Source: a virus. Taken from it: DNA of 43,224 nt. Positions 2,400 through 43,224 of this stretch are shown here, one piece after another; position 1 is the first letter of the stretch, and each line of letters starts with the position of its first letter. Made by a program: the position numbers and the translations under genes. Location of the stretch: IMG/VR virus record IMGVR_UViG_3300035199_001163, positions 1-43,224 of that record. One strand, given 5' to 3'. The notes below the pieces were generated by a model. It did not search any database. It saw only the letters and a program-made list of their open reading frames with translations, and was not told the origin of the DNA.

Positions 2400-5300
2400 A
2401 CGGTGATCTCCACAGCCAGCGGGTCGGAGGCATAACCCCTTCCGACCACATCGCTGATCTGGTAGGCGGTGATGGTGATGTCGTGGGTGCCCGGGTCGAA
2501 GTCCTCGGCCATCTGGGCGCTGGTGTAGTTCGCGCTCTCGCTGGTGGCGCTGATCGTCCGCACCACCGTCCCGCTGTCGTCGGCAATATCGAACTCGATC
2601 TGCAGAGAGGATTCGTTCAGAGCTACGTCCGCGCCGTCGCGCCACTCGCCGCCGTAGCGGGTGCGGCGAATGCACTCGATGGCCAGGTCGCCGTCATGCA
2701 CCGCGCGAAGGTGGACCGGGGAATAAGGTTTAAGTGCGACGCCCTCGAGCTCGGCGGGGAGCACGTCCGCGTTCTCCGGAACGTTGCCGTTTGACACGGC
2801 ACGGTAGTAGAGCGTGTTGCCGATATCGTTCTCATCGATCTGCTCGCGGACCACGCGGCTGTCGACCAGCACGAAATCGTCGCCATCCTCGTGCAGGTCC
2901 ATCGCCCATTCGGTGCCCCACCGGCCGCGCAGCAGGTTGCTGACCTCGTATTCACCACCGCCCTGATCGGCCGCGTCGGCGAAATTGAGCAGCTCCCACC
3001 GGCCCGGCTTGCCATAGGCCGCCAGGTTGCCGTTCTGCAGCACATCATCCTCCGGCAGGCCGGCAAGCGTGCCGTTGCGCATGTCGACGGTGATGACCGT
3101 GCCGCGGTCCCACACGTCCGGGTTGCTGGCCGCGACAGCGGTCGAGACCACACCGTTGACCGCGCGCTGACCCAGAAAAGCCAGCGGCTCGTATTGCGAG
3201 GCATTGCGCGATAGCTGGACAGAGGCATAGGACCAGCCGGCATAGAACGCCCGCGCACCCAGCTCCACGCCGGCGCTGTCGTTCTGCCGGCTCCTGGCCG
3301 GCAGCTCCAGCAGCATCAGCTGCGTCGGCCCCGCCAGCGGAACAGCCTGGCCGGCCTCGGGTGTGTCGCCCCCCACGGCCGCAGATTCGTAGATGCTGGC
3401 GTCATCGCGCAGCGCGCGCACATTCAGCACGCCGGGCAGCCGGTAGTTGATCTCGACCACCCGCACCCGGCGCGTCACGCCCGAGATCTGCAGATTCACC
3501 GCATCGCCCGGGTCGAGATAGATGTAACTCAGCGGCAGCGAGAACTGCAGCTCATTGCGGGACCAGTAAGCCTCGTGCGCGATGATGTCCGCGATCTGCG
3601 CGGCCTCGGTGTTGCCCAGGGCGCCGGCATATTCGATATCGGTCGAGGCCTCGGACTGGATTTCGATGCGCTGATAGAGCTGCTGCGCCCGCTCATAGGC
3701 GTTGCCGGCGTCCTTGTAGTGGACGCGCACCGTCTTCGGCAGCTCGCGACCGGCGCCCCGCTCCAGCGCATAGACCGGCGGCCTCTGGCTCCCCTCCGTG
3801 TGCGCCGCCAGATCCTCCTCGGTGATCGTCGCCACGGGCTCCGACCCACGCAGCGGGAACCGCAGCTTGCCGCCGCTCTCCACCGCATCGAAGAAGTGCG
3901 CAGCGCGCAGCGGGTCGATGGCCTGGCGCCCGCTCATCTGGCGGGTGATCGAGTAGCCGTGGATCGTCTTGGTCAGCTCGGTGACGTCGATATCCGACGT
4001 GGCGAGCCCGTTCTCCTCGCAGATCGCGGACACCACCGAGCCGAGGGTGATCTCGCCCGGCCCGCAGACCGGGCATGTGAACAACCCGCCCGACGTGAGC
4101 ATCGCGCCGGGGATCGAAACGGGATGCACGGCTTTGCCGAATCCGGCATCGATCGAGTCATAGGCGAGGACGTCGTAGGTGTCGTCGTCGTGCAGATCAA
4201 GGACGCGATACCGCCCCTGTGTCGTCTGCTCCGCGATCATGGTGCAAGCGCCCTCGCGCGCCATCCAAGGGCGATTTATCGCCGGGATGCCGGTCCAATG
4301 GTGGACCTGGCTGCCGCTCTGCCGATCGTAGGCGTAGATCTGCTTCTCCGTGGTGCCGTCCGGCCCCACCAGCGCGTAGTAGTAGCGCTCGTCGAATGCG
4401 ACGTTCCACACCAGGTCGTCGCCGGTATACGAGTGCGACCGAATCGGTGTGCTCCCCCCGAACGTCACCACGTAGAGGGTGTTCTCGGGGTTCTGCGCTC
4501 CCGATCCCGGGATGAGGTAGATGGTGTTGGGGGCCTCCGGATCCTCGGCCGCGAACGCCACCTGCGTGCTGCCTGCAGGGCCGAGGAATCCGAGTCGCGC
4601 GCCCTCGATCTCCAGCGACTCGCCAACGTTCGGGAAATAATCGAGCCAGGCCAAGTACACCGTGCTGCTGTCGTTGATACCCGGCAGGGTCACGCCGCAC
4701 GAAAAATTGATCCGCCCAATCGCCGCGCCAGGTCGGTTCGTAATCGGCCGCAGGATCGTAACGACGAACGTCCGCGTCTCGCCGGGATCGCAGAACTTCT
4801 CCTCGAACTGGTAGACGTCGTGCCCGCGCGTCAGGACGTTGCCCTCCAGGCCAACCGTGACCGTCTCGACAATGAGCCGCCCCGAGTCCTCCTGCGAGCG
4901 CTGCGCCTCCGACAGCCGAAACACGCTGTCCCGGCTGGTGACCGGGTAGGAGTCCGATAGATCCGGCCAGTCGCTGATCGGGAACTCCAGCACCTCGTCT
5001 TCGCCGGTTCCGACCACTTCGGCCGTGATATTCGGCAGACGGTTGCCGAACTGCGCCAAGGGAAGGTCGCGGAAAACGATGTAGGCGATGCCGCGATAGG
5101 CCGGCGTCAGGCTCTCGCCGACGTCCGCCTGGATCGTCGGATCCGGCTCCTGATCCTCCGTCCCGAGATACAGCGTCACGCCCTCTTTCAACTTCAACGA
5201 CGCGGCCACCTCTTCCAGGCTGCTCTCATCGTCCACGCTGTAGAACAGTTCCGAGTTCAGCCACAGCTTGCGGATGCCGCAGATGGGGCCGCGGCCCAGC

Positions 5301-7536: not shown

Positions 7537-9737
7537 CAGCGGTTCCTCTGCAGCGCCCGGCTGACGGCCGCACCGATGCTGGCCTCAACCTCGCTGCGGT
7601 GCCGGCGGAAGCTCTCGGCATCCGGCGTGGAGATGGGCACGGTCACCTGCACGGGCCCCATGCCGCGTTCGTATTCGCGCGTCTGCTCACGGCTGAGCAC
7701 GCGCTCGCCCTTCAGGCCGATGAAGGGCACCTCGCCCGGCGCCAGGCCGAGCCGCCCGCCGGTATGAAGGCGCGGCGCGCCCGCCCAGGCCAGGGGGGAT
7801 ACCGTCTTGCCCGATGTCGCTTGGCCGATGACCGCACCGGTATGGCCCGTACCGGCGAACAGCCCGGACACGAAGTCCACGCCCGCGCCAACCAGCCCGC
7901 CGCCGCCACCCTGCCCACCGCCGGTAATACCCTCGAGGATCTGCGCCGCGGCCGCTTCGGCAGCCATGCGCTGCAGCGTGCGCGCGAAGCTCTGGAACAT
8001 GCCTTCCAGGCCTTCTTCGAAGGGGTCGAAGAGGAAGTCCGCCAGGGCGCTCTCCATGTTGCGCGCGGCCTGCACGAAGAACTCGCTGGCGTCGTCGGTC
8101 GCGTCGCGCATGTCGTACAGCTCGCCGGCCAGGCGGCGCACGGCTTCGCGCTGCTGGTCGGTCGCCTCGACGCTGAGCTTGCTGACGGCGATGGCCTGCA
8201 CGCGCTCGCGCTCGGTCATCTGCTGGAGTTCGATCTCGCGCTGCATGTCGGCGATCAGGTCGCGGTTCGCCGCACGCATCTCGGCGATCTCGTTCGTGCG
8301 CTCGCGCTGCGCCTCGGCGGCCTTCTCGGCGGCCTCCGCGCGCTCTTCCTCGGCTTCCTGCGCGGCCTGCTTGGCGTCGACTTCCGCCAGTAGCTCGCGC
8401 GCCAGGCGCATCGTGCTCTCGCTGGCGCCGAGCTGCTCCAGCTTGTAGAGCTCCGTGGCCTGCGCCGCCTCGCCGGTTGTGGCCGCCTGCTCGCGCAGCT
8501 TCTCGATGATGCGCGCGATGGACTGCTCGCGGTTCTCGGCACTCCCGCCGCCGCTGGTATCCGGCAGCGAGAGATCCGGCCGCTCGGGCGGGTCCGGCGT
8601 CTCCACGCCGCCACCGCCATCGATGCGCCGCTGCGCCGCACGCGAGCCCTCCTGCGCCAGCTGCAGGCGCTGCTGGTAGAGCTGACGCAGCTGGTCCGTC
8701 AGCTCGTCCTCGTCTTCCTGCGAGAAGCCCATGCGCGCAGCGGCTTCGCTGTCGCTGCGCAGCAGCCGCAGGCGCCGCTCCACCTTCGCGATCTGCTTGT
8801 CCAGCCGCTCGATCGAGTCGGTGGAGCCGTGGATGAACTCGCCGAAGGCCTCGCCCAGCGCGGTGCCCGCCTGGCCGGCGAAGGAGACAATGTTGACCAG
8901 CCAGCCGGCGATGCTGCTCAGCCCGGAGACCAGGCCGCTGATGCCGTCGCGCACGCGCGGGCTGTTGATGGTGTCCGCCAGGTCCTCGAACTGCCCGGCG
9001 TTCTCGGCGATCGCGCGCGTGAAGGCGGCGTCGAAGACGTTGCGCAGCTCGCGGAAGGCGTCCGCCGCATCGGCCGCGTCGTCGATCGCTTCGTCACCCA
9101 GCACCGCACCGGCTTCGTGGGCCTTCTGGCGCAGCCGGTCGAAGCCCTCCGCACCGTCGATCAGGAAGGGCAGCAAACGGCGGCCCAGGTCGTCGCCGAA
9201 GATGCGCACGGCCGCGGCGTTGCGGCGGGTCGGGTCCTCCACCTTCGAGAGCCGATCCACGAACAGCTCGAAGAGCTCCGCCGGCCGCTTGCCCCGCAGG
9301 TCCTCCACCTCGATGCCAACCAGGCGGAAGTCGTCGACGAAGGACTGCATGCCGTCCTTGGCATCCTGCGAGCGGTCGGCCAGCGTGTTGAGCGCGTCCG
9401 ATACGTCGTTGCTTTCCAGCCCGAACTCGCGGAAAACGAAGTTCAGCTCCTGGATGGACTGCGCATCCTCGCCCAGCGAGCGCGCCGTGCGGCGCACCTC
9501 CTCCAGCTCCCGCGTCACGCGCTGGGCGCCGTTGGCAATGGCCGCGAAGGACAGTGCCCCGGCAAGGCCGGACAGCGCGAAGCGCACATCGAAGATGTTG
9601 CGCGTGATGCCGGCGAAGGTGCGCCGGCCGCTCTCGCGCAGCTTCTGGAACTGCCCGGTCGCCTCGCGCCGCGCGCGCGCCAGGCCCTCGGCGTTGCCGA
9701 GGATGTTGACGATGTAGTCGGTCTTGCTATTCGCCAT
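7536..9737 (-). CDS. tail tape measure protein
   Basis: A 733-residue product. The N-terminus (MANSKTDYIVNILGNAEG) leads into an alpha-helical region with a hydrophobic segment near 55-70. A long charged coiled coil rich in Ala, Glu and Arg runs from about 400 to 560, followed by a Gly-rich hydrophobic patch near 600-640 and a polar C-terminus. Tape measure proteins fix tail length at roughly 0.15 nm per residue, so a tail near 110 nm is expected (inference). It follows the G/GT chaperone pair, as is standard, and its ATG lies inside the end of the GT reading frame. Confidence 0.85.
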   Translation of the reverse strand: MANSKTDYIVNILGNAEGLARARREATGQFQKLRESGRRTFAGITRNIFDVRFALSGLAGALSFAAIANGAQRVTRELEEVRRTARSLGEDAQSIQELNFVFREFGLESNDVSDALNTLADRSQDAKDGMQSFVDDFRLVGIEVEDLRGKRPAELFELFVDRLSKVEDPTRRNAAAVRIFGDDLGRRLLPFLIDGAEGFDRLRQKAHEAGAVLGDEAIDDAADAADAFRELRNVFDAAFTRAIAENAGQFEDLADTINSPRVRDGISGLVSGLSSIAGWLVNIVSFAGQAGTALGEAFGEFIHGSTDSIERLDKQIAKVERRLRLLRSDSEAAARMGFSQEDEDELTDQLRQLYQQRLQLAQEGSRAAQRRIDGGGGVETPDPPERPDLSLPDTSGGGSAENREQSIARIIEKLREQAATTGEAAQATELYKLEQLGASESTMRLARELLAEVDAKQAAQEAEEERAEAAEKAAEAQRERTNEIAEMRAANRDLIADMQREIELQQMTERERVQAIAVSKLSVEATDQQREAVRRLAGELYDMRDATDDASEFFVQAARNMESALADFLFDPFEEGLEGMFQSFARTLQRMAAEAAAAQILEGITGGGQGGGGGLVGAGVDFVSGLFAGTGHTGAVIGQATSGKTVSPLAWAGAPRLHTGGRLGLAPGEVPFIGLKGERVLSREQTREYERGMGPVQVTVPISTPDAESFRRHRSEVEASIGAAVSRALQRNR

Positions 9738-13082: not shown

Positions 13083-15386
13083 TCAGGCGCCGGCGTTCTT
13101 GACGATGCCGCGGTAGCCGACCCCGGCCACGCCGTAGTCGCGAATCACGCGCCACTTCATGCCGGCGGTGCCGAAGTCATCCTCCATCGTCAGCTGCGCT
13201 TCCTCGACACCATCCAGGAAGGCCACCTCGATGACCGGCTCGATGACGGCGGCGGCGAGCATGTACCAGGCCGTGCCGCTGAGACGCGGGGTATCCACCA
13301 CGTCCGAGAACAGGCCGCGAACCTTGTTCACGCGCTGCAGCTTGTTGTTCGCGTCCGGGTCGTACTCGGAGTTGTTGACCACGCGCGCGGTGCCGCCGAG
13401 ACCGATCGGGCCGAGCCAGACATCCGGGCGGATGTCGAGGAAGTCGTTGCCGCTGACGTCCTTCTGCTGGGCCATGAGCACCCGCATGGCCTCGACCGCC
13501 TCGACGCTCGGCGCGGCCGGGTTGCTGGCGATGTTGTTGTGCGAGGCGTGGAACATCGGGTTGCCGTCGCCCAGCGTCGGCCCGTTGCCGCCGTTCTCCG
13601 CCAACTTGGCGTAGACGTCCTTCTCGACGGTGCGCTCCGAGGCCTGGCCGAGACGGAAGGTCGCGTTGGAGAACACGCCCATGTCGTCGTTGATGAGGAT
13701 GTCGCGGCCGATGTTGAGCACGCGACCCTTGCTGCTGCCCCGGATCGACTCGCGCTCCGCATCGCTCATCGTGCCTTCGACATACTCGCCGTTCTCGTTG
13801 ACCTCCTGCAGGTCCGAGAAGGTGCCGGTGGTGTAGCGCGGGTGCTCGCGGAAGTCCGACAGCGAGCCCACCGCGCAGAAGCGGCGCCAGGTCGGCTGCA
13901 CGGACTGCGCGCCCAGCCGCAGCGTCTTGTGCAGCGCGTTCTCGAAGATGTTCGGGAAGTCGTCCGTGCTGTGGGTAGCGGCCGCCTTGATGGCCGCGTC
14001 GATCAGCGCGATGCGGCCCATGCCGCGGCAGTTGATGCCGTTGGCCTCCAGCACCGAGCGGGCCAGGTCCGCGTAGCTGTGGCCGCGGTAGGGGTTGCCG
14101 TCCATGGCCTTGCGCACGCGCTTGGACTCGTCCGTGTCGTGCGAGGTGACGCCGGCGCGGAACACCAGCCAGTCGCCCGCCGCATCCACGCGCTTGTCGC
14201 GCTCGTCGGCACCGGCCTCGATGGCCGCATAGCTGCCGCCGATGGGCTCCGCCGTGTTGCTCATGTGCGCGAGCAGCTCGGTGCGGACGTCCTTGAGGTC
14301 CTTGTCCTCGTCGATGGCGGCCTGCGCCTCGAGGTCGGCGAGCTTCTTGTCCTCCGGCCGCGCCTGGCGCGCGATGGCGAACATGCTGGCCACGCGCTCG
14401 GCTCGGGTGGGCTCGGGCTTGTGAGGGCCGGCGGCGGCGCCACCGGCACCCTCGCCGCCGTCGCCGCCGGACTGCCGCTTGAGTGCGGCTGCCATGATGG
14501 CGTCGTCGGCTGCGGCAGCTTCAAGCTGCAGGTGCTGCCGGACCTGGTCGCGCACGGTCTTGTCGTCCGCATCCGCGGCGACTTCCAGGCCGAGCGCCTT
14601 GGCGATGGTCTTCCAGTTCATGATGCACTCCTCGGGTTTCGCGGCGCTCGCCGCAGGTGTGGAGGGGGTTGCCGCCGGCGCGGGTGCGCCGGCAGTGGCG
14701 CGCACTTCGCGCGCGACTCGGGGATGCAGGGCGGCGGCCATGGCGGCCGGAGCGCTGCGGTAGCGATGCATTGCCGCGATCGACGGCGCGAAGCGTTCGC
14801 TGGCTTCGGCGTCGTCGACCGGCTCCAGCTCGTCGAGCACCTCGTCGACGTAGCCTTCTTCCTTGGCGCGGCCGGCGCTGTACCAGTGGTCCTTGCCGTC
14901 GCTGAGGACTTCCAGCTCCGCCTCGGCGGTGCGGCCGGTCTTGCGCGCGTAGCTGGTGGCCATGGCCTCGCCGAAGCTGTCCAGCACGTCGGCCATCTCG
15001 CGCAGTTCGACGGCGTTGCCGGCGGCGACCAGCCACGGCAGGTGGTTCATCACCATGGTGTTGGCGTAGGCCTGGACGGTGTCGCCCGCCATGGCGATCA
15101 GGCTGGCGATGCTGGCGGCGATGCCTTCGATACGCACCGTCACCGGAATGCCCAGCGCGCGGATCATGTTGTAGATGGCCGTGCCGTCGGTCACCGAGCC
15201 GCCGTAGCTGTTGACGCGCACCAGCAGGTGGCTGGCGTTCAGCTCGCGCAGCTGGTCGTTGACCGTGCTGGCATCGACGAACTGGCCGATCCAGCGCTCG
15301 CCGATGTCGCCGTAGATGAGCAACTCGGCATCCGGTTCGCCCTGCGCCTTGGGCTTGCGCGCCTGCGCCTTCAGGATCAGCTTCAT
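13083..15386 (-). CDS. prohead protease-major capsid fusion protein
   Basis: A 767-residue fusion. Residues 1-200 are a ClpP/S14-type protease with NSYGG (59-63), Ser92 in GIAASIAS and His115 in MVMNHLPW. A Pro/Ala linker follows (about 205-255). Residues 256-390 are helical and resemble a scaffold (delta) domain, and from about 390 to the end is a major capsid domain with NIGRDILINDDMGVF and a WLGPIGLGGTARV segment. Met256 (ATG at 14621) has a GGAG ribosome site about 7 bases upstream, so a separate scaffold-capsid product of 512 residues is likely. This mirrors nested genes C/Nu3 of lambda but with the capsid included. The start overlaps the portal stop. Confidence 0.85.
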   Translation of the reverse strand: MKLILKAQARKPKAQGEPDAELLIYGDIGERWIGQFVDASTVNDQLRELNASHLLVRVNSYGGSVTDGTAIYNMIRALGIPVTVRIEGIAASIASLIAMAGDTVQAYANTMVMNHLPWLVAAGNAVELREMADVLDSFGEAMATSYARKTGRTAEAELEVLSDGKDHWYSAGRAKEEGYVDEVLDELEPVDDAEASERFAPSIAAMHRYRSAPAAMAAALHPRVAREVRATAGAPAPAATPSTPAASAAKPEECIMNWKTIAKALGLEVAADADDKTVRDQVRQHLQLEAAAADDAIMAAALKRQSGGDGGEGAGGAAAGPHKPEPTRAERVASMFAIARQARPEDKKLADLEAQAAIDEDKDLKDVRTELLAHMSNTAEPIGGSYAAIEAGADERDKRVDAAGDWLVFRAGVTSHDTDESKRVRKAMDGNPYRGHSYADLARSVLEANGINCRGMGRIALIDAAIKAAATHSTDDFPNIFENALHKTLRLGAQSVQPTWRRFCAVGSLSDFREHPRYTTGTFSDLQEVNENGEYVEGTMSDAERESIRGSSKGRVLNIGRDILINDDMGVFSNATFRLGQASERTVEKDVYAKLAENGGNGPTLGDGNPMFHASHNNIASNPAAPSVEAVEAMRVLMAQQKDVSGNDFLDIRPDVWLGPIGLGGTARVVNNSEYDPDANNKLQRVNKVRGLFSDVVDTPRLSGTAWYMLAAAVIEPVIEVAFLDGVEEAQLTMEDDFGTAGMKWRVIRDYGVAGVGYRGIVKNAGA

Positions 15387-19893: not shown

Positions 19894-20193
19894 ATGGCTG
19901 ACCATCGCCCAAACCAGGAATACGCCTTGCCGGAACTTCTGCAGTATCTCTTCCCGTCCCCCGCAGTCACACTCACCACCTGCGGCCTGCTGCTAGACAT
20001 CGGCGGCGTCGTTCTGATCTTCAAGTACGGGCTTCCCGCCAGCATCAATCGCTCCGGCATGATCGGGCTTGGAACCCCGGATGAGACTGGCGAGCACAAG
20101 GCCGCTGCGCGCAGGTACGACCGCTGGGCGCGCGTCGGGCTCGTGATGCTCATCGCGGGATTCGCCCTGCAGATGCTGGCCTCATACGCCTAG
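19894..20193 (+). CDS. small two-TM membrane protein
   Basis: A 99-residue plus-strand gene set inside a minus-strand island. Two hydrophobic segments (about 22-44 and 80-98) flank a cytoplasmic loop with GTPDETGEHKAAARRYDRW. Similar small inner-membrane proteins occur in many proteobacterial genomes, with no known function. It diverges from the sulfotransferase and converges with the glycosyltransferase, overlapping its stop by 3 bases, which suggests separate acquisition. Confidence 0.6.
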   Translation: MADHRPNQEYALPELLQYLFPSPAVTLTTCGLLLDIGGVVLIFKYGLPASINRSGMIGLGTPDETGEHKAAARRYDRWARVGLVMLIAGFALQMLASYA

Positions 20194-20858
20194 GCCTCCG
20201 GCGGCTCCGGCGGCAGATTGCTCGCGTGATCCGCAGCTCGGTCGACGGCCCATCCGGTTTCATGTGGCCGCGGCTTGCCGTGATAGCAGACGAGTCGTGC
20301 ATCGGGCGGCCTCTGGTCGCGGCAGTGCGCCTTGTAACTCACCACCTGACCGGGCACCAGGTCCTGCCAGCGTGCGGCAGACTCACGCAGGCCGATGAGC
20401 TCGAGGAAGCGCTGGTCGCCGAACTGGCCGCACTGCGCCATCCAGTGCGAGGGGTCTGCTATCCAGCGCTCCCAGATAGCGGCGCGGTCCGCCTCTGGCA
20501 AGTACATGAGGCCGGAACCGATGCCGTTGGCGCGACCATGCGCAAAGTAGTGATAGAAGTCGCGCAGCACGGTCAGGCGACCAACGCCCGCGATCTCCGA
20601 CAGGCCGCCGCAGATGACGGTGTCGAGATCCAGGTAGAGAATGTCGCCGCGCAAGTCCGGCCGGAACAACTCGAGCTTCGACCACCAGGTCGGCCAGTCA
20701 TGGTCAAGCGCCATGTGCCCGGTCACCCCGGAATCGTCGGACAAACAGCGGAAGTCCACGCCCGGCAGATGCCGCTCTACCCCGCGCGCGATGCGCTCGA
20801 CGTACTCGCGGCCGAAGTCGCCGCCTGTGCGAAGTACGGTATAGACAGTCAGTTTCAT
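20190..20858 (-). CDS. glycosyltransferase (GT-A fold, GT8-like)
   Basis: A 222-residue product. KLTVYTVLRTGGDF starts a nucleotide-sugar fold, and GDILYLDLDTVICGG supplies the DxD metal-binding motif at about 75-80. SKLELFRPDL just before it is typical of GT8-like and phage-associated glycosyltransferases. GIGSGLMYL and GDQRFLELIG follow, as acceptor-side elements. The ATG overlaps the stop of the upstream MptE-like gene (ATGA). Acceptor unknown; a virion or host surface glycan is likely. Confidence 0.75.
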   Translation of the reverse strand: MKLTVYTVLRTGGDFGREYVERIARGVERHLPGVDFRCLSDDSGVTGHMALDHDWPTWWSKLELFRPDLRGDILYLDLDTVICGGLSEIAGVGRLTVLRDFYHYFAHGRANGIGSGLMYLPEADRAAIWERWIADPSHWMAQCGQFGDQRFLELIGLRESAARWQDLVPGQVVSYKAHCRDQRPPDARLVCYHGKPRPHETGWAVDRAADHASNLPPEPPEA

Positions 20859-21541
20859 GTAGCCACCATTGGTAGAAGACGCTGCAACGGAACGGACGTG
20901 GTGCCGTCGATGACGCTGAGCGGCGAGACGTTCAGCAGCTCGATGCCGTGCTCGTCCCGCAGGCCGACGCACAGCGCCTCCAGCGCCGCGCGCTTGGCGG
21001 ACCACAACGGGTCGTCGCGCCACAGCTTCGCCGGCACATTGCCGGTGCAGTAGCGACCGCTCGCACCGTCGCGTAGGTCGAAGCCCACCAGCACGATCCG
21101 ACGCGCGCCCCAGGCGCGTGCCAGCTCGATGGCCTGCACGCCCGAGTTGGCTCCGCCACCACCGGCGCCGAAATGGATGTAATTGTCAGGATCCGGAGTC
21201 GGGCCTGCGCAGTACCGTCCCGGTACAAGTTCCACATCGGCAAGGCTCTCCGCATCCACCTGGGCTGCGAAGCGGCGCCCGCTGCAGCGCGCGCGCACGT
21301 CCGGCAGGTACACCTCCCACCAGGCCGCATCCGCTGCGTAGATCGCGGCCGGCTGCCCCTCCCGCGCGAATACCGTGCCGACGGCGATGGTCCGAGAGCC
21401 CGGGAGCCGATGCAGCGGAATCGTCCTGATGCTGGTGCCCGGCGCCACCACCCAGGCGGTGCGGTCCACGTCCGTCAGCGTCAACGGCGAGGCCGGCACC
21501 CCACCCGCTTTCGCCGGCGAAAGGCAGGCGGCGCTATCCAT
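20855..21541 (-). CDS. MptE/DUF115-like protein, first gene of modification island
   Basis: A 228-residue product. ANSGVQAIELARAWGARRIVLVGFDLRDG matches the MptE-like/DUF115 core and is parallel to the protein at 18678-19325. The N-terminal part lacks the usual full Rossmann entry but has WVVAPGTSIRTIP. It is coupled to the downstream glycosyltransferase. The codons for SPAKA near the N-terminus lie in a perfect 16-bp palindrome that recurs at 34165. Confidence 0.6.
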   Translation of the reverse strand: MDSAACLSPAKAGGVPASPLTLTDVDRTAWVVAPGTSIRTIPLHRLPGSRTIAVGTVFAREGQPAAIYAADAAWWEVYLPDVRARCSGRRFAAQVDAESLADVELVPGRYCAGPTPDPDNYIHFGAGGGGANSGVQAIELARAWGARRIVLVGFDLRDGASGRYCTGNVPAKLWRDDPLWSAKRAALEALCVGLRDEHGIELLNVSPLSVIDGTTSVPLQRLLPMVAT

Positions 21542-36622: not shown

Positions 36623-36843
36623 GCACGCAGACCTACAGCTGCCCCGAATGCCAGCGGCTGATCGACGTCCGCATCCGCACCGACTGCGGCGTCTACAGCA
36701 CCGAGTTCTTCGACGCCCGCGGCTACCAGCGCGCCACCTGCGACTGCGGCCTGCCGCTCTACGAAGCGCTGGCGCAGCGTCGGCTTCAACCGTTTCCAGC
36801 CACCACCACCGAGCCACCCGACAGGAGCACCCCATGCAGCTGA
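36619..36843 (+). CDS. zinc-ribbon protein, 74 aa, upstream of the DGR
   Basis: CPEC (8-11) and CDCG form a possible zinc site, with FFDARGYQRATC between. It starts inside the ParB-like stop (ATGA) and overlaps the variable protein's start by 10 bases, so it is translated with the DGR target. No recognised family. Confidence 0.6.
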   Translation: MSTQTYSCPECQRLIDVRIRTDCGVYSTEFFDARGYQRATCDCGLPLYEALAQRRLQPFPATTTEPPDRSTPCS

Positions 36844-37373
36844 GCATTTCCATCGACCGCACCGGGCCGTACGGCCTGAGCATCCACATCCCGGACCTCG
36901 CAGAGCTAGCCCCACGCGCAGAGCCGACACCCGACCACCAGACGCCCGACGGGCGCTTCCGCCTCCTCGATAGCCAGGGCCGCACAAGCGACAGCACACC
37001 CGAGCTGGTGCACGACACCACCACCGGCCTCATCTGGACGGCCGCGGAAAGCCTCACCAGCGAGCGCGTCAACCACGCCACCGCCAGCGAGGCCGCAAGC
37101 GCTCTGCGCTACATGGGCGCCGACGACTGGCGCCTGCCGACGATGCACGAGCTGCTGAGCATCGTCGACTACGGCCGTACCGACCCGGCCATCGACACCG
37201 CGGCGTTTCGCTGCCACGCCCGGCCGTACTGGTCGTCGTCGCTCTTCGCGGGCGATTCCGACGGCGCCTGGATCGTCGGCTTCCGCGACGGCTACTCCCT
37301 CATCCACGACCGCGGCGACGACCTCGCCTTTGTGCGTGCGGTGCGCGGCCCGGTGCGCGCGGCCAGTCAGTAA
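36834..37373 (+). CDS. DGR variable protein with DUF1566/Lcl-type C-terminal domain
   Basis: A 179-residue product behind an AGGAG site. The C-terminal domain (about 55-177) has the DUF1566 core: TTGLIWTAA, DDWRLPTMHELLSIVDYGRTDP, and PYWSSSLFAGDSDGAWIVGF ending VRAVRGPV. DUF1566 is one of the known C-type-lectin-like DGR target folds. The last 46 residues are encoded by the variable repeat (37232-37367). No signal peptide, membrane segment or virion-fibre repeats are visible, unlike phage Mtd-type targets. Confidence 0.85.
   Translation: MQLSISIDRTGPYGLSIHIPDLAELAPRAEPTPDHQTPDGRFRLLDSQGRTSDSTPELVHDTTTGLIWTAAESLTSERVNHATASEAASALRYMGADDWRLPTMHELLSIVDYGRTDPAIDTAAFRCHARPYWSSSLFAGDSDGAWIVGFRDGYSLIHDRGDDLAFVRAVRGPVRAASQ
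37232..37367 (+). repeat. DGR variable repeat (VR), 136 bp
   Basis: Aligns without gaps to the template at 37894-38029. There are 14 differences, all opposite TR adenines: 12 lie in 7 AAC codons and one each in a CAC and a GAC codon. No other TR base differs. The first 29 bases and last 42 bases are invariant, and alignment ends at 37368, where VR has C and TR has G (the expected distinction of IMH and IMH*). A 5-bp inverted repeat (ATCAG-CCTTT-CTGAT, 37373-37387) follows VR at the DGR cruciform position. Confidence 0.92.
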
Positions 37374-37403
37374 TCAGCCTTTCTGATCTTCGCCGGAGGC
37401 GCC

Positions 37404-37838
37404 ATGTCCTTTGAACTCCCGCCCATCGTGAAACAGGCCGAACGGCTGATGGTGGAAATCGAGGAAGCGGTCCGCCGCTTCCCGCGCTACCACAAGTACA
37501 CGCACGGCGCGGAGTTGCGGACGGCCGCCATGCGCGTTACCCGCCTCACGCATCGCGCCTGGCGGGACCGGCGCCACCAGGCGCACTGGCTGGACGAGCT
37601 GGTATGGGCGATCGACGAACTCAAGATCACCATGCAGCTCGGCCAGCGCGTGCGCGCCTACGCAAGCCTCCGGCAGTTCGAGCACCTCGCCCGCCAGGCA
37701 CGCCAGCTCGGCAAGCAGGCGGGCGGCTGGCGCAAGCAGCAGCACCCCAAGGGCCAGAATCCAGCGCCGTCCGCGGCGTCGGAGCGCGCCCAGACACTGA
37801 GTACCCGCACCGCCTCCGCGCAGGAGGCCACGCCATGA
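37404..37838 (+). CDS. avd: DGR accessory variability determinant (Avd-like)
   Basis: A 144-residue product. RFPRYHKYTHGAELRTAAMRVTRLTHRAWRD, then DELVWAIDELKITMQLGQRVRAYASLRQFEHL and QLGKQAGGWRKQQ, match the Avd four-helix bundle, which oligomerises and binds the RT and template RNA. A polar C-terminal tail is added. It has GGAGG before its ATG, and its stop overlaps the RT start by 4 bases, which indicates coupled translation. Confidence 0.88.
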   Translation: MSFELPPIVKQAERLMVEIEEAVRRFPRYHKYTHGAELRTAAMRVTRLTHRAWRDRRHQAHWLDELVWAIDELKITMQLGQRVRAYASLRQFEHLARQARQLGKQAGGWRKQQHPKGQNPAPSAASERAQTLSTRTASAQEATP

Positions 37839-39220
37839 CGAAGCCGCGCTACCCCCAGGGCTGCCCGGCCGGGTCCCAAGCGTGCGGGGATGCGTCGTCG
37901 TCGCTCTTCGCGGGCGATTCCGACAACGCCTGGATCGTCAACTTCCACAACGGCAACTCCAACATCCACAACCGCGACAACGACAACGCCTTTGTGCGTG
38001 CGGTGCGCGGCCCGGTGCGCGCGGCCAGTGAGTGTCAGGGTGCCGTCAGCTTCGCCGGCCTGCATCGCGCCTGGCAGGCCGCGCGGCGTCACAAACGGCC
38101 CAGCCGCAACCAGCTCGCCTTCGAGGCCCACTGGGCAGACAACCTGCTGTCCCTGGAAGCCCGCATAGAGGCAGGCAACTGGTCGCCCGCGCCCAGCACC
38201 TGCTTCATCGCCAGCCGCAACAAGGCGCGCGAGATCCACGCGCCGGACTTCGCCGACCGCGTCGTGCACCACTGGCTGGTTCCGCAGCTCGAGCGCATCT
38301 TCGAGCCCGGCTTCATCCACGACAGCTACAGCAACCGCCCCGGCAAGGGCACGCACGCCGCCGTCATCCGCCTGCAGCGCTTCGTGCGCCAGGTGCACAG
38401 CGGCCAGGGCGGCGGCTGGTATCTGCAGCTGGACATCGCCAACTTCTTCAACGCCATCCACCGGCCCACCCTCTGGCGCATCCTCAAGCGCCGCATGGCC
38501 GTCCATGGCGTGCCGGGCACCACGCAGCGCGTCGCCCACGCCCTGCTGCGCCGGCCGCCCACCGCCCAGGGCGTGCACTACCGCGCCACCCGCCAGGAGC
38601 GCGCCCAGGTGCCGCCCCACAAGCGCCTGCACAACGCCGGCCGCGGGCGCGGCCTACCCATCGGCAACCTCTCCAGCCAGTTCTTCGCCAACGTCTACCT
38701 CGACCAGCTCGACCAGTTCGTCAAGCACCAGCTGCGCGCCAGGCGCTACATCCGCTACGTCGACGACTTCGTCCTCATCCACCACGACCGCGCCCAGCTG
38801 GAGCAATGGCAGCACGCCATCGAGCACTTCCTGCACACCGAGCTGCGCTTGCGCCTCAAGTCGGAGATCAAGCTGCAGCCGCTGAGCGCCGGCATCGACT
38901 TCCTCGGCTACATCGCCCACCCCACGCACACCCGCGTCCGGCGCCGCGTCATCAGCCACGCCCGTGAAGCCCTGCACCGCATCGAGCGCGACCACTTGCG
39001 CGGCAACCGCCTGCTACTCACCCCCGAGCAGCTCCGCCGCGCCGCGTCCACCTGGAACAGCTACCGCGCCCACTTCCAGCACGCCAACGCCTGCGGCCTC
39101 ACTGACGGCTTCCACCGGCGCCACCCCTGGCTGCACGCCATCACCGCCCGCCGCCGCCTCGACTACCGGCTGGAAGGCCGGCGCATTGCCATTCCTGTAT
39201 CGGAGAAACAAGCTCCATGA
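37835..39220 (+). CDS. DGR reverse transcriptase
   Basis: The ORF gives 461 residues from ATG 37835 (AGGAGG 7 bases upstream). The RT core begins about residue 70, with ARRHKRPSRNQLAFEAHW and DRVVHHWLVPQLERIFEPGFIHDSYSNRPGKGTH. Catalytic Asp200 lies in LDIANFF and the active site is YVDD at 308-311. LPIGNLSSQ (275-282) is the motif typical of DGR and group II-like RTs. Residues 1-66 encode a leader plus TR; no in-frame ATG or GTG just after TR was found, so either the TR peptide is part of the enzyme or a non-standard start is used. Confidence 0.9.
   Translation: MTKPRYPQGCPAGSQACGDASSSLFAGDSDNAWIVNFHNGNSNIHNRDNDNAFVRAVRGPVRAASECQGAVSFAGLHRAWQAARRHKRPSRNQLAFEAHWADNLLSLEARIEAGNWSPAPSTCFIASRNKAREIHAPDFADRVVHHWLVPQLERIFEPGFIHDSYSNRPGKGTHAAVIRLQRFVRQVHSGQGGGWYLQLDIANFFNAIHRPTLWRILKRRMAVHGVPGTTQRVAHALLRRPPTAQGVHYRATRQERAQVPPHKRLHNAGRGRGLPIGNLSSQFFANVYLDQLDQFVKHQLRARRYIRYVDDFVLIHHDRAQLEQWQHAIEHFLHTELRLRLKSEIKLQPLSAGIDFLGYIAHPTHTRVRRRVISHAREALHRIERDHLRGNRLLLTPEQLRRAASTWNSYRAHFQHANACGLTDGFHRRHPWLHAITARRRLDYRLEGRRIAIPVSEKQAP
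37894..38029 (+). repeat. DGR template repeat (TR), 136 bp, inside the RT reading frame
   Basis: The donor for mutagenic homing. It contains 25 adenines, 16 of them in 8 AAC codons; AAC is the codon type that yields many amino acids but no stop after adenine mutation. It is in the same translational phase as VR and also in frame with the RT ORF (RT codons 20-65), so it reads SSSLFAGDSDNAWIVNFHNG there. TR should be transcribed as an RNA copied by RT with Avd. Confidence 0.92.
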
Positions 39221-39684
39221 GCCTCGCCGACCGCCTCATCAAGCGCATCACCCGCCGCCCGCCGGACTTCACCGTCGGCGACCCCGCCGCGCCGTACCTG
39301 CGCCGCTGGTGGGTCATCCCGCGCAACCGCGTCTTCAACGTCTACCTGCACGAATTCCTGCGCGACGACGACGACCGGGCCCTGCACGACCACCCGTGGC
39401 CGTGGCTCAGCATCATGCTGCGCGGCGAGTACATCGAGCACACCATCGCCGCCGGCGGCATCAACCACGCCAAGCGCCACCAGGCCGGCGGCTTCCGCGC
39501 CCACGGCCCGAACTACGCCCACCGCCTGGCACTCGCCGACCACGGCCGGCCCGCATGGACACTGTTCATCACCGGCCCGCGCTTGCGCGAGTGGGGCTTT
39601 CATTGCCCATTCGCCGGCTGGGTGCACTGGCAGAACTTCACGTCCACTGACGGCCGGCAGGTCGGCAAGGGATGCGACCAATGA
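39217..39684 (+). CDS. cupin-like protein coupled to the RT
   Basis: A 155-residue product. The His pairs in ALHDHPWPWLSIMLRG-YIEHT and the following AHGPNYAHRLALAD fit a double-stranded beta-helix (cupin) with a metal site, and CPFAGWVHWQNF ends it. The ATG overlaps the RT stop (ATGA). Such small cupin-like proteins occur elsewhere in phages outside DGRs, so a role in the retroelement is only suggested by coupling. Confidence 0.65.
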   Translation: MSLADRLIKRITRRPPDFTVGDPAAPYLRRWWVIPRNRVFNVYLHEFLRDDDDRALHDHPWPWLSIMLRGEYIEHTIAAGGINHAKRHQAGGFRAHGPNYAHRLALADHGRPAWTLFITGPRLREWGFHCPFAGWVHWQNFTSTDGRQVGKGCDQ

Positions 39685-42168: not shown

Positions 42169-43224
42169 CTACAGCTGGCGCACGCCCTCCGGCCGCAGGT
42201 TCGTGTAGCGCTTCAGCTCGTCCCAGCTCTCGTGGAGCGTGAACTGCGTCACTTCGTGGATCTGATAGCCGCGCTCGAAGAGCCGCGACGTCGCCTCGTG
42301 CCGCAGGTCGTGGAAGCGTAGATCGGGGATCCCCAGCACTTTGCACGTCCGCGTCCAGTTCGACGACACGCTCTTCGCATCAAAGGGGAATATGCGATCG
42401 CCAGGCTGCGGGTGCTCCGGCTTCGGCTGCCGGTCGATGATCGCCCTCGCCTCCGGCGTCAGCGCGAAGCGGCGGTGGTTCCCTTTCTTCGCCCGCGGGT
42501 GCTTGGCATCGCGCAGTAGGCAGGTCTTCCCGTCGTAGTCCACCCACTCGATGCGGCAGATCTCCGCCTCGCGCCTGGCGCTGTGGATCGCGAACCACAT
42601 GATCTCGCGCATCGGGATCCGCGCCCGGCCGTCGCGGCGGGAAAGGTAATCGTCCAAGCGCGCGAGCTCGTCATCCGTCGGCCGGCGGTCGCGGCGCCTC
42701 GAGGCCCCGATCAGCCGCAGCTCGCGACAGGCCGTGCGCGCCTCGAGCACCACCTCCGGCCGCACCGGCAGCCCGCGCACGCTCGCGGCCGCGCGCAGCA
42801 CCACGCCGATGTAGGTCAGGTCCGAGCCCGCCGTCGCCGGCTGCACACCGCCGGCGCGCCGCTGTCGCACGAAATCGATCAGATGCTGGCGCGTCAGCTG
42901 CAGCGCGTCCAGATCCGCGATCGGGTAGTTCTGCAGCCGCTTCAGCACCGCGTCCTTCGAGCGCTCCCACTGCCCCTCGCCGCCGAAGTCGCGCACGTAC
43001 CAGCGGATCAGCTCGCCCAGAGAAGTGTCGCCCGCCTGCACCTGCTGGAGCGCCGCCGGGTCCTCCAACTCCACCTCGCGCCGCTTGCTCCAGTCGACCG
43101 CAGCGGTGCGACGCGAGAACGTCTGCGACTCCTGGTGCACAATTCGCCCATGTCGCTTAAGCCGAACCGTCGCCGTATACCCTGTGCTGCCGTCCTTACG
43201 ACGGCGGGCGCGTATCGTTGCCAA
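42169..43224 (-). CDS. int: tyrosine recombinase (phage integrase)
   Basis: 351 residues, starting at TTG on the last bases of the window; a start further upstream cannot be excluded. The SAM-like core-binding domain is about 64-165, and the catalytic domain follows with Arg217 (HSARREAE), His305 and Arg308 (FHDLRHE), His331 (TLHESW) and Tyr340 (KRYTNL). All key residues are present. It would insert and excise the prophage, but no attachment core is visible because the upstream side lies outside the window. Confidence 0.88.
   Translation of the reverse strand: MATIRARRRKDGSTGYTATVRLKRHGRIVHQESQTFSRRTAAVDWSKRREVELEDPAALQQVQAGDTSLGELIRWYVRDFGGEGQWERSKDAVLKRLQNYPIADLDALQLTRQHLIDFVRQRRAGGVQPATAGSDLTYIGVVLRAAASVRGLPVRPEVVLEARTACRELRLIGASRRRDRRPTDDELARLDDYLSRRDGRARIPMREIMWFAIHSARREAEICRIEWVDYDGKTCLLRDAKHPRAKKGNHRRFALTPEARAIIDRQPKPEHPQPGDRIFPFDAKSVSSNWTRTCKVLGIPDLRFHDLRHEATSRLFERGYQIHEVTQFTLHESWDELKRYTNLRPEGVRQL

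Follow-up and report, generated by a model that had tools for sequence, protein, structure and literature searches.

A diversity-generating retroelement of a Xanthomonadales prophage lineage with a conserved RNA element 5′ of the template repeat and an RT reading frame open through the template

The diversity-generating retroelement (DGR) of BPP-1 is the model for DGR cDNA initiation, which in that system requires RNA on the 3′ side of the template. There, a folded spacer 3′ of the template repeat (TR) both recruits RT-Avd and provides the priming adenine, and RT is stopped by a motif in the 3′ end of avd (PMC12875486). The Rfam family Phage_DGR RNA (RF03022) lies 3′ of TR in BPP-1, with a match at 3825-3957 of locus L011, and Rfam also holds RT-15 (RF03018), a family that is not named as a DGR element. 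Among DGR targets the commonest Pfam domain is DUF1566/Lcl_C (PMC6642488), and it has been noted before, for DiGReF group 3 in a passage of PMC3521204, that TR overlaps annotated RT ORFs.

We analysed one whole IMG/VR record, IMGVR_UViG_3300035199_001163 (43,224 bases; hereafter the window), which reads from protein family matches as a siphovirus-like (pro)phage. Its minus-strand late genes encode a GTA-type baseplate hub, tape measure, major tail protein, ClpP-capsid fusion, portal and terminase, after which come DnaB and then an O-like replication protein; the plus-strand early block consists of ParB, the variable protein (VP), Avd, RT and a cysteine-dioxygenase-like protein. The DGR cassette lies ∼4 kb from the integrase end of the contig, with the tail genes far off (Table 1). 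The cysteine-dioxygenase-like (cupin) phage protein is encoded directly 3′ of RT (39217-39684), and cupin/dioxygenase homologues in relatives are found 2.5-3.5 kb upstream of RT. The contig also encodes a major capsid protein with a fused ClpP-type protease (13083-15386; NCBIfam NF045540) and, amid the late genes, a glycosyltransferase-like moron gene (20190-21023; PHROG 1962).

Table 1. Positions in the window of the DGR components, the 5′ RNA element and the integrase (aa, amino acids).
Feature	Position	Strand	Basis or remark
Variable protein VP, 179 aa	36834..37373	+	Lcl_C/DUF1566 C-type-lectin domain, residues 58-171
Variable repeat VR	37232..37367	+	14 of 25 TR adenines changed
Invariant VR 3′ end (IMH-like)	37325..37367	+	next codon CAG, then stop; TR has GAG
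Avd accessory protein, 144 aa	37404..37838	+	Pfam bAvd, 41.9 bits (above cutoff); PHROG 3206, E 4e-20
Conserved RNA element, model R1	37740..37893	+	directly 5′ of TR; overlaps avd 3′ end and RT start
R1 helix H1	37752-37754/37788-37790	+	covariation
R1 helix H2	37760-37764/37779-37783	+	covariation
R1 helix H3	37804-37810/37882-37888	+	covariation
R1 helix H4	37812-37817/37823-37828	+	covariation
R1 helix H5	37843-37846/37866-37869	+	covariation
AGGAGG-type Shine-Dalgarno in H4 3′ arm, then ATGA	37823..37838	+	sequence
RT reading frame, 461 aa	37835..39220	+	residues 1-69, leader and TR-encoded tail; RT core from about residue 71 (38045)
Template repeat TR	37894..38029	+	in frame within RT ORF; same frame as VR in VP
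Tyrosine integrase	42169..43224	-	Pfam Phage_integrase; closes contig end

The features by which a DGR is recognized were all found in the window: an adenine-only pair of TR and variable repeat (VR), an RT with the catalytic motif, Avd, and a VR placed by Pfam and by predicted structure at the C-terminus of a C-type-lectin-fold protein. TR and VR aligned over 136 bp without gaps, and all 14 mismatches fell at the 25 TR adenines, a placement with a chance of ∼1e-12 for random mismatch positions; all 14 VR changes lie at VP codon position 1 or 2. This alignment confirmed the repeat length and adenine-only differences reported in an initial annotation, which was also right that the repeats have invariant ends but gave them as 29 and 42 bases, where we found 31 and 43. 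The whole 43,224-base record yielded no second VR and no further TR copy. Avd fell below the cutoff of the NCBIfam model DivGenRetAVD, and PHROG 3206, which it matches (Table 1), is annotated as 'Avd protein of DGR'. The profile search matched RT to PHROG 1423 (phage RT; E 1e-98), and the IGNLSSQ and YVDD motifs named in the initial annotation are both present. The best match to RT by sequence among solved structures was 8ub7, which we take to be the BPP-1 DGR RT complex; in a quick tree RT falls in a DGR clade, and cultured-phage RTs are at most ∼41% identical to it. We conclude that the element is a real, intact DGR of a temperate siphovirus-like phage, complete as first annotated, with all components intact in the standard VR-Avd-TR-RT order. 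It is ordinary as a DGR; what is new is its RNA layout and its probably translated template, both of which the initial annotation had overlooked.

Plain sequence searches of viral contigs with RT and VP returned no relatives, and a search with an RT alignment found 160 loci. The close set of ∼105 loci, with RT at least 53% identical to the window RT, was reduced to 83 lineages by removal of near-copies. Named hosts of these ∼105 relatives are mostly Xanthomonadales (Stenotrophomonas, Xanthomonas, Lysobacter, Dyella, Rhodanobacter, Luteimonas, Pseudoxanthomonas), and the relatives are mostly prophages that form one clade (SH-aLRT 100 in a quick tree of a sample of 33). RT lies at most 8 kb from a contig end in 39 of the 48 contigs of at least 35 kb, compared with a random expectation of 36%. 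Because the neighbours of the DGR vary, while ParB-like genes recur in 13 loci and dioxygenase-like genes in 14, the cassette seems to be mobile as a module.

Throughout the clade, VR changes were found at 2125 of 3724 TR adenines versus 22 at all other TR bases. Activity is also evident from two relatives, L085 and L116, whose RT genes are 99.9% identical and whose TR stretches differ by a single base; their two VRs differ at 15 of 22 and 14 of 22 TR adenines and at no other position. Divergence confined to adenines despite nearly identical RT genes indicates that the lineage is active in nature, and it supplies the adenine-only new VR variants between strains that the initial annotation had suggested looking for. 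Its description of the element as recently active thus holds for the clade; for the window contig we only infer activity, since the searches turned up no close relative of this particular phage.

The first base past the repeat is C in VR (37368; CAG, then stop) and G in TR (38030; GAGT), and across the clade C follows VR in 124 of 159 cases and G follows TR in 155 of 159, a switch at the 3′ junction that resembles the distinction between IMH and IMH* in BPP-1. A short motif, CAGTRATYGGCCTTTTGGC, is conserved 3′ of VR in clade loci (window form ATCAGCCTTTCTGAT, within 37368-37387) and is perhaps an IMH-downstream element. A BPP-1-like conserved perfect hairpin 3′ of VR was not supported, perfect stems there being no commoner than in shuffled sequences.

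Aligned TR 5′ flanks of 77 lineages yielded a structural model, R1, with five helices. In these helices 94.1% of cells are paired, and double-sided changes number 288 versus 73.8 ± 7.5 in shuffles, falling to 22-95 when the partners are slid. The minimum-energy fold of the window reproduced all five helices; the energy of that fold is ordinary for sequence so rich in GC (z −0.12), so the case for the RNA rests on comparison. The R1 covariance model scored 88-140 bits against held-out clade members and also matched more distant DGRs (among them L120, L121, L124, L130 and L134), and nearly all matches end a few bases or less from the TR start. The avd codons contain helices H1, H2 and H4 together with the 5′ arm of H3, and the RT leader contains H5 with the 3′ arm of H3; the ATGA shared by the two genes is in the junction. 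R1 is absent from Rfam, and an Rfam scan gave no match anywhere in the window: RF03022 was absent, the RF03018 gathering score was not reached in the window or in any of 31 clade records, and the RT-15 and Phage_DGR identities for this RNA were thereby ruled out. In one of the more distant loci, L130 (Thiorhodospira), a C4 antisense RNA (RF01695) lies at 9031-9115, ∼3 kb from the DGR.

On the other side of TR, there was no sign of a BPP-1-type structured spacer RNA between TR and RT in the window. The gap from TR to the RT core is 15 nt here and mostly 12-30 nt in the clade, compared with 138-195 nt in tail-type DGRs, and a clade-wide test of the stretch between 30 nt upstream and 200 nt downstream of the RT core start found no covarying helix 3′ of TR.

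The RT frame of the window is open from well upstream of the ATG at 37835, which overlaps the Avd stop (37836-37838) as ATGA and is, judging from sequence, the plausible RT start. This ATGA overlap recurs in the RT frame of 81 of 83 lineages, GRGG occurs at −11 to −8 before the ATG in the clade, and 81 of 83 lineages share a leader resembling MT(T/K)PRYPxGCxAGSQVxG. In all 81 of these lineages no stop interrupts the frame from the ATG through TR to the RT core, at 23 different ATG-to-core lengths (138-222 nt), and we conclude that TR is probably translated as an RT tail. By comparison, frame 2 is open in only 5 of 81; the stop-codon test is uninformative for frame 1, which the Avd stop itself closes. 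In seven lineages there is no ATG, GTG or TTG from the TR start to the RT core, so RT there must start before TR. The window thus has all three lineage traits: the ATGA start at the Avd stop, the open frame through TR and the R1 RNA. Residues 1-69 of RT are predicted to be disordered (AlphaFold2 pLDDT mostly 33-47), which ruled out a folded TR-encoded RT domain. The codon-position pattern shows that the leader is conserved partly at the RNA level, and the leader peptide itself may therefore not matter.

One could instead suppose that this is an ordinary BPP-1-type DGR, in which RT starts at a GTG in or just past TR, the overlap is a compact, GC-rich by-product and the 3′ spacer is hidden in RT coding sequence. 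Most relatives, like the window, have in-frame GTG codons close to the TR 3′ end that would in principle serve as alternative RT starts, GC-rich DNA favours stop-free frames, and the group 3 passage cited above already records TR overlapping annotated RT ORFs. We find this account very doubtful, however, given how regularly the ATGA stands in the RT frame, the excess of open frame 0 over frame 2, the seven lineages without an internal start, the short gap from TR to the RT core and the lack of covariation 3′ of TR in the region tested. Also against it stand sister lineages that have the same RNA without a TR-RT fusion, such as L120, where the ATGA frame is not the RT frame.

A different explanation for the in-frame TR is that it was selected as a fail-safe, with nonsense or frameshift mutations in TR disabling RT before they reach VP. 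Of 81 lineages, 76 read TR in the same frame as VP, and a tail predicted to be disordered would tolerate any coding content. In the other five (L029, L052, L090, L091 and L112), however, TR is read in a frame other than that of VP, giving a Thr/Ser-rich tail, and the RT frame is still open; these exceptions weaken the case for strict selection on the VP frame, and retention of the frame may be simple inheritance. We regard the fail-safe as unlikely.

We consider it highly probable that the window carries an intact DGR of a Xanthomonadales-prophage lineage with a rearranged RNA and gene layout, a 5′ RNA and a TR-encoded RT tail, a reading whose observed parts, at the level of sequence comparison, are the adenine-only copying pattern, the activity of the lineage, the conserved RNA and the open RT frame through TR. 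In the mechanism that we propose, the VP, Avd and RT genes are read in one direction and their transcript folds, as the covariation shows, into the element directly 5′ of TR. This element, rather than a BPP-1-style 3′ spacer, may recruit RT-Avd and position or prime cDNA on TR; RT miscopies template adenines, and the mutated cDNA replaces VR in VP, as the adenine-only pattern and the paired relatives show. Translation of RT would begin at the ATGA within the 5′ RNA and cross TR to give the disordered tail. With the RT start inside the RNA and translation running through TR, template folding and RT translation would be expected to compete.

More tentatively, the lineage may represent a permuted class of DGR RNA, in which the template is preceded on its 5′ side by a structured region that binds RT, possibly primes cDNA synthesis and contains the RT start codon; we put this somewhat below an even chance. 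If such a class exists, the same RNA must choose between the roles of template and RT mRNA, and the RT tail would be an unmutated copy of its own template. A large active lineage with a covarying 5′ RNA and no 3′ spacer makes multiple routes of DGR priming directly testable.

The diversified protein, VP, matched Lcl_C in Pfam (E 1e-25), and its AlphaFold2 model (pLDDT 88.8) is a C-type lectin with the C-terminal domain of Legionella Lcl (8q4e) as top PDB match. It has no signal peptide and no TM segment. Clade VPs are free-standing (median 153 aa), with Lcl_C in all 60 scanned, and 67 of 81 lineages have two or three VRs; by a crude hydropathy test, a hydrophobic N-terminal stretch is absent from 152 of 153. 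Modelling and context suggest that VP is a small lectin-fold binding protein of the early region without recognisable tail-fibre character, and the lineage draws attention to a set of hypervariable phage proteins encoded in early regions. VP could be a receptor-binding component of the virion that is encoded in the early region only by chance, so that the DGR alters host range as in BPP-1: the lectin fold suits binding, and phage DGR targets are mostly tail proteins in several clades (PMC8144416). We think this rather unlikely, however, because the clade VPs are small and free-standing and mostly accompanied by at least two VRs, their genes cluster beside Avd-RT, mostly near a prophage end, and the VP gene of the window is distant from the tail genes. 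VP may instead work inside the lysogen as a hypervariable intracellular recognition protein that binds, for example, a superinfecting phage or a host protein. The location in the early/lysogeny region, the paired paralogues and the hydropathy result fit this proposal, and DGR-based immunity has been suggested earlier (PMC10053308), but VP has no known effector domain and small lectin domains can also be associated with virions; we hold it only tentatively. In either case VP would bind a variable partner, and a role in the lysogen seems somewhat more likely than one in a tail fibre.

A parallel in layout is a set of DGRs from the Pseudomonas phages VB_PaD_phPA-G, Haboob, Cruim01, LPPA56 and SC_8_H2H8_2017, Burkholderia phage Magia and Shewanella phage QDWS, in which RT-15 is found. 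RF03018 lies immediately 5′ of TR in L004-L008, that is L004, L005, L006, L007 and L008, and in L012, L013, L149, L150, L154 and L155, so that RT-15 looks like a DGR RNA and a family whose name is silent on DGRs becomes linked to them. As in the window lineage, TR is close to the RT core with a structured RNA directly 5′ of it, and two VRs lie in paired small VP genes beside Avd, non-tail where annotated. The two RNAs are alike in layout (a 5′ hairpin, single strand, a closed junction, then TR), and since in our reading of the two structures the published RT-15 layout looks like R1, the RNAs may be variants of a single 5′ element. They differ in that the RT-15 class RNA is RF03018, which R1 does not match, the VR and RT frames differ, in L013 the RT-frame opening begins inside TR, and the RTs are 37-41% identical to the window RT and form a separate clade. 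The two sequenced phages L004 (VB_PaD_phPA-G) and L012 (Haboob) have almost the same VP pair, with the differences falling mainly in the variable region, and are a possible laboratory model.

Compared with the BPP-1 DGR (mtd-avd-TR-brt), the window element shares gene order, Avd, adenine-specific changes, a lectin-fold target and a DGR-class RT. It differs in having its RNA 5′ of TR, where BPP-1 has a spacer RNA 3′ of TR that the window lineage lacks, in a target that is a small early-region protein instead of a tail fibre, and in the probable translation of TR into RT. With other DUF1566/Lcl_C targets it shares the domain, here in free-standing phage early proteins. The overlap of TR with the RT ORF is common to DiGReF group 3, which the PMC3521204 passage describes as an arrangement of annotated ORFs; the conserved RT start at the Avd stop and the RNA element do not appear in that passage, and measured against it they are additions to the known overlap. 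In retrons, msr lies 5′ of msd, an arrangement to which we liken the structured RNA 5′ of TR in the window lineage.
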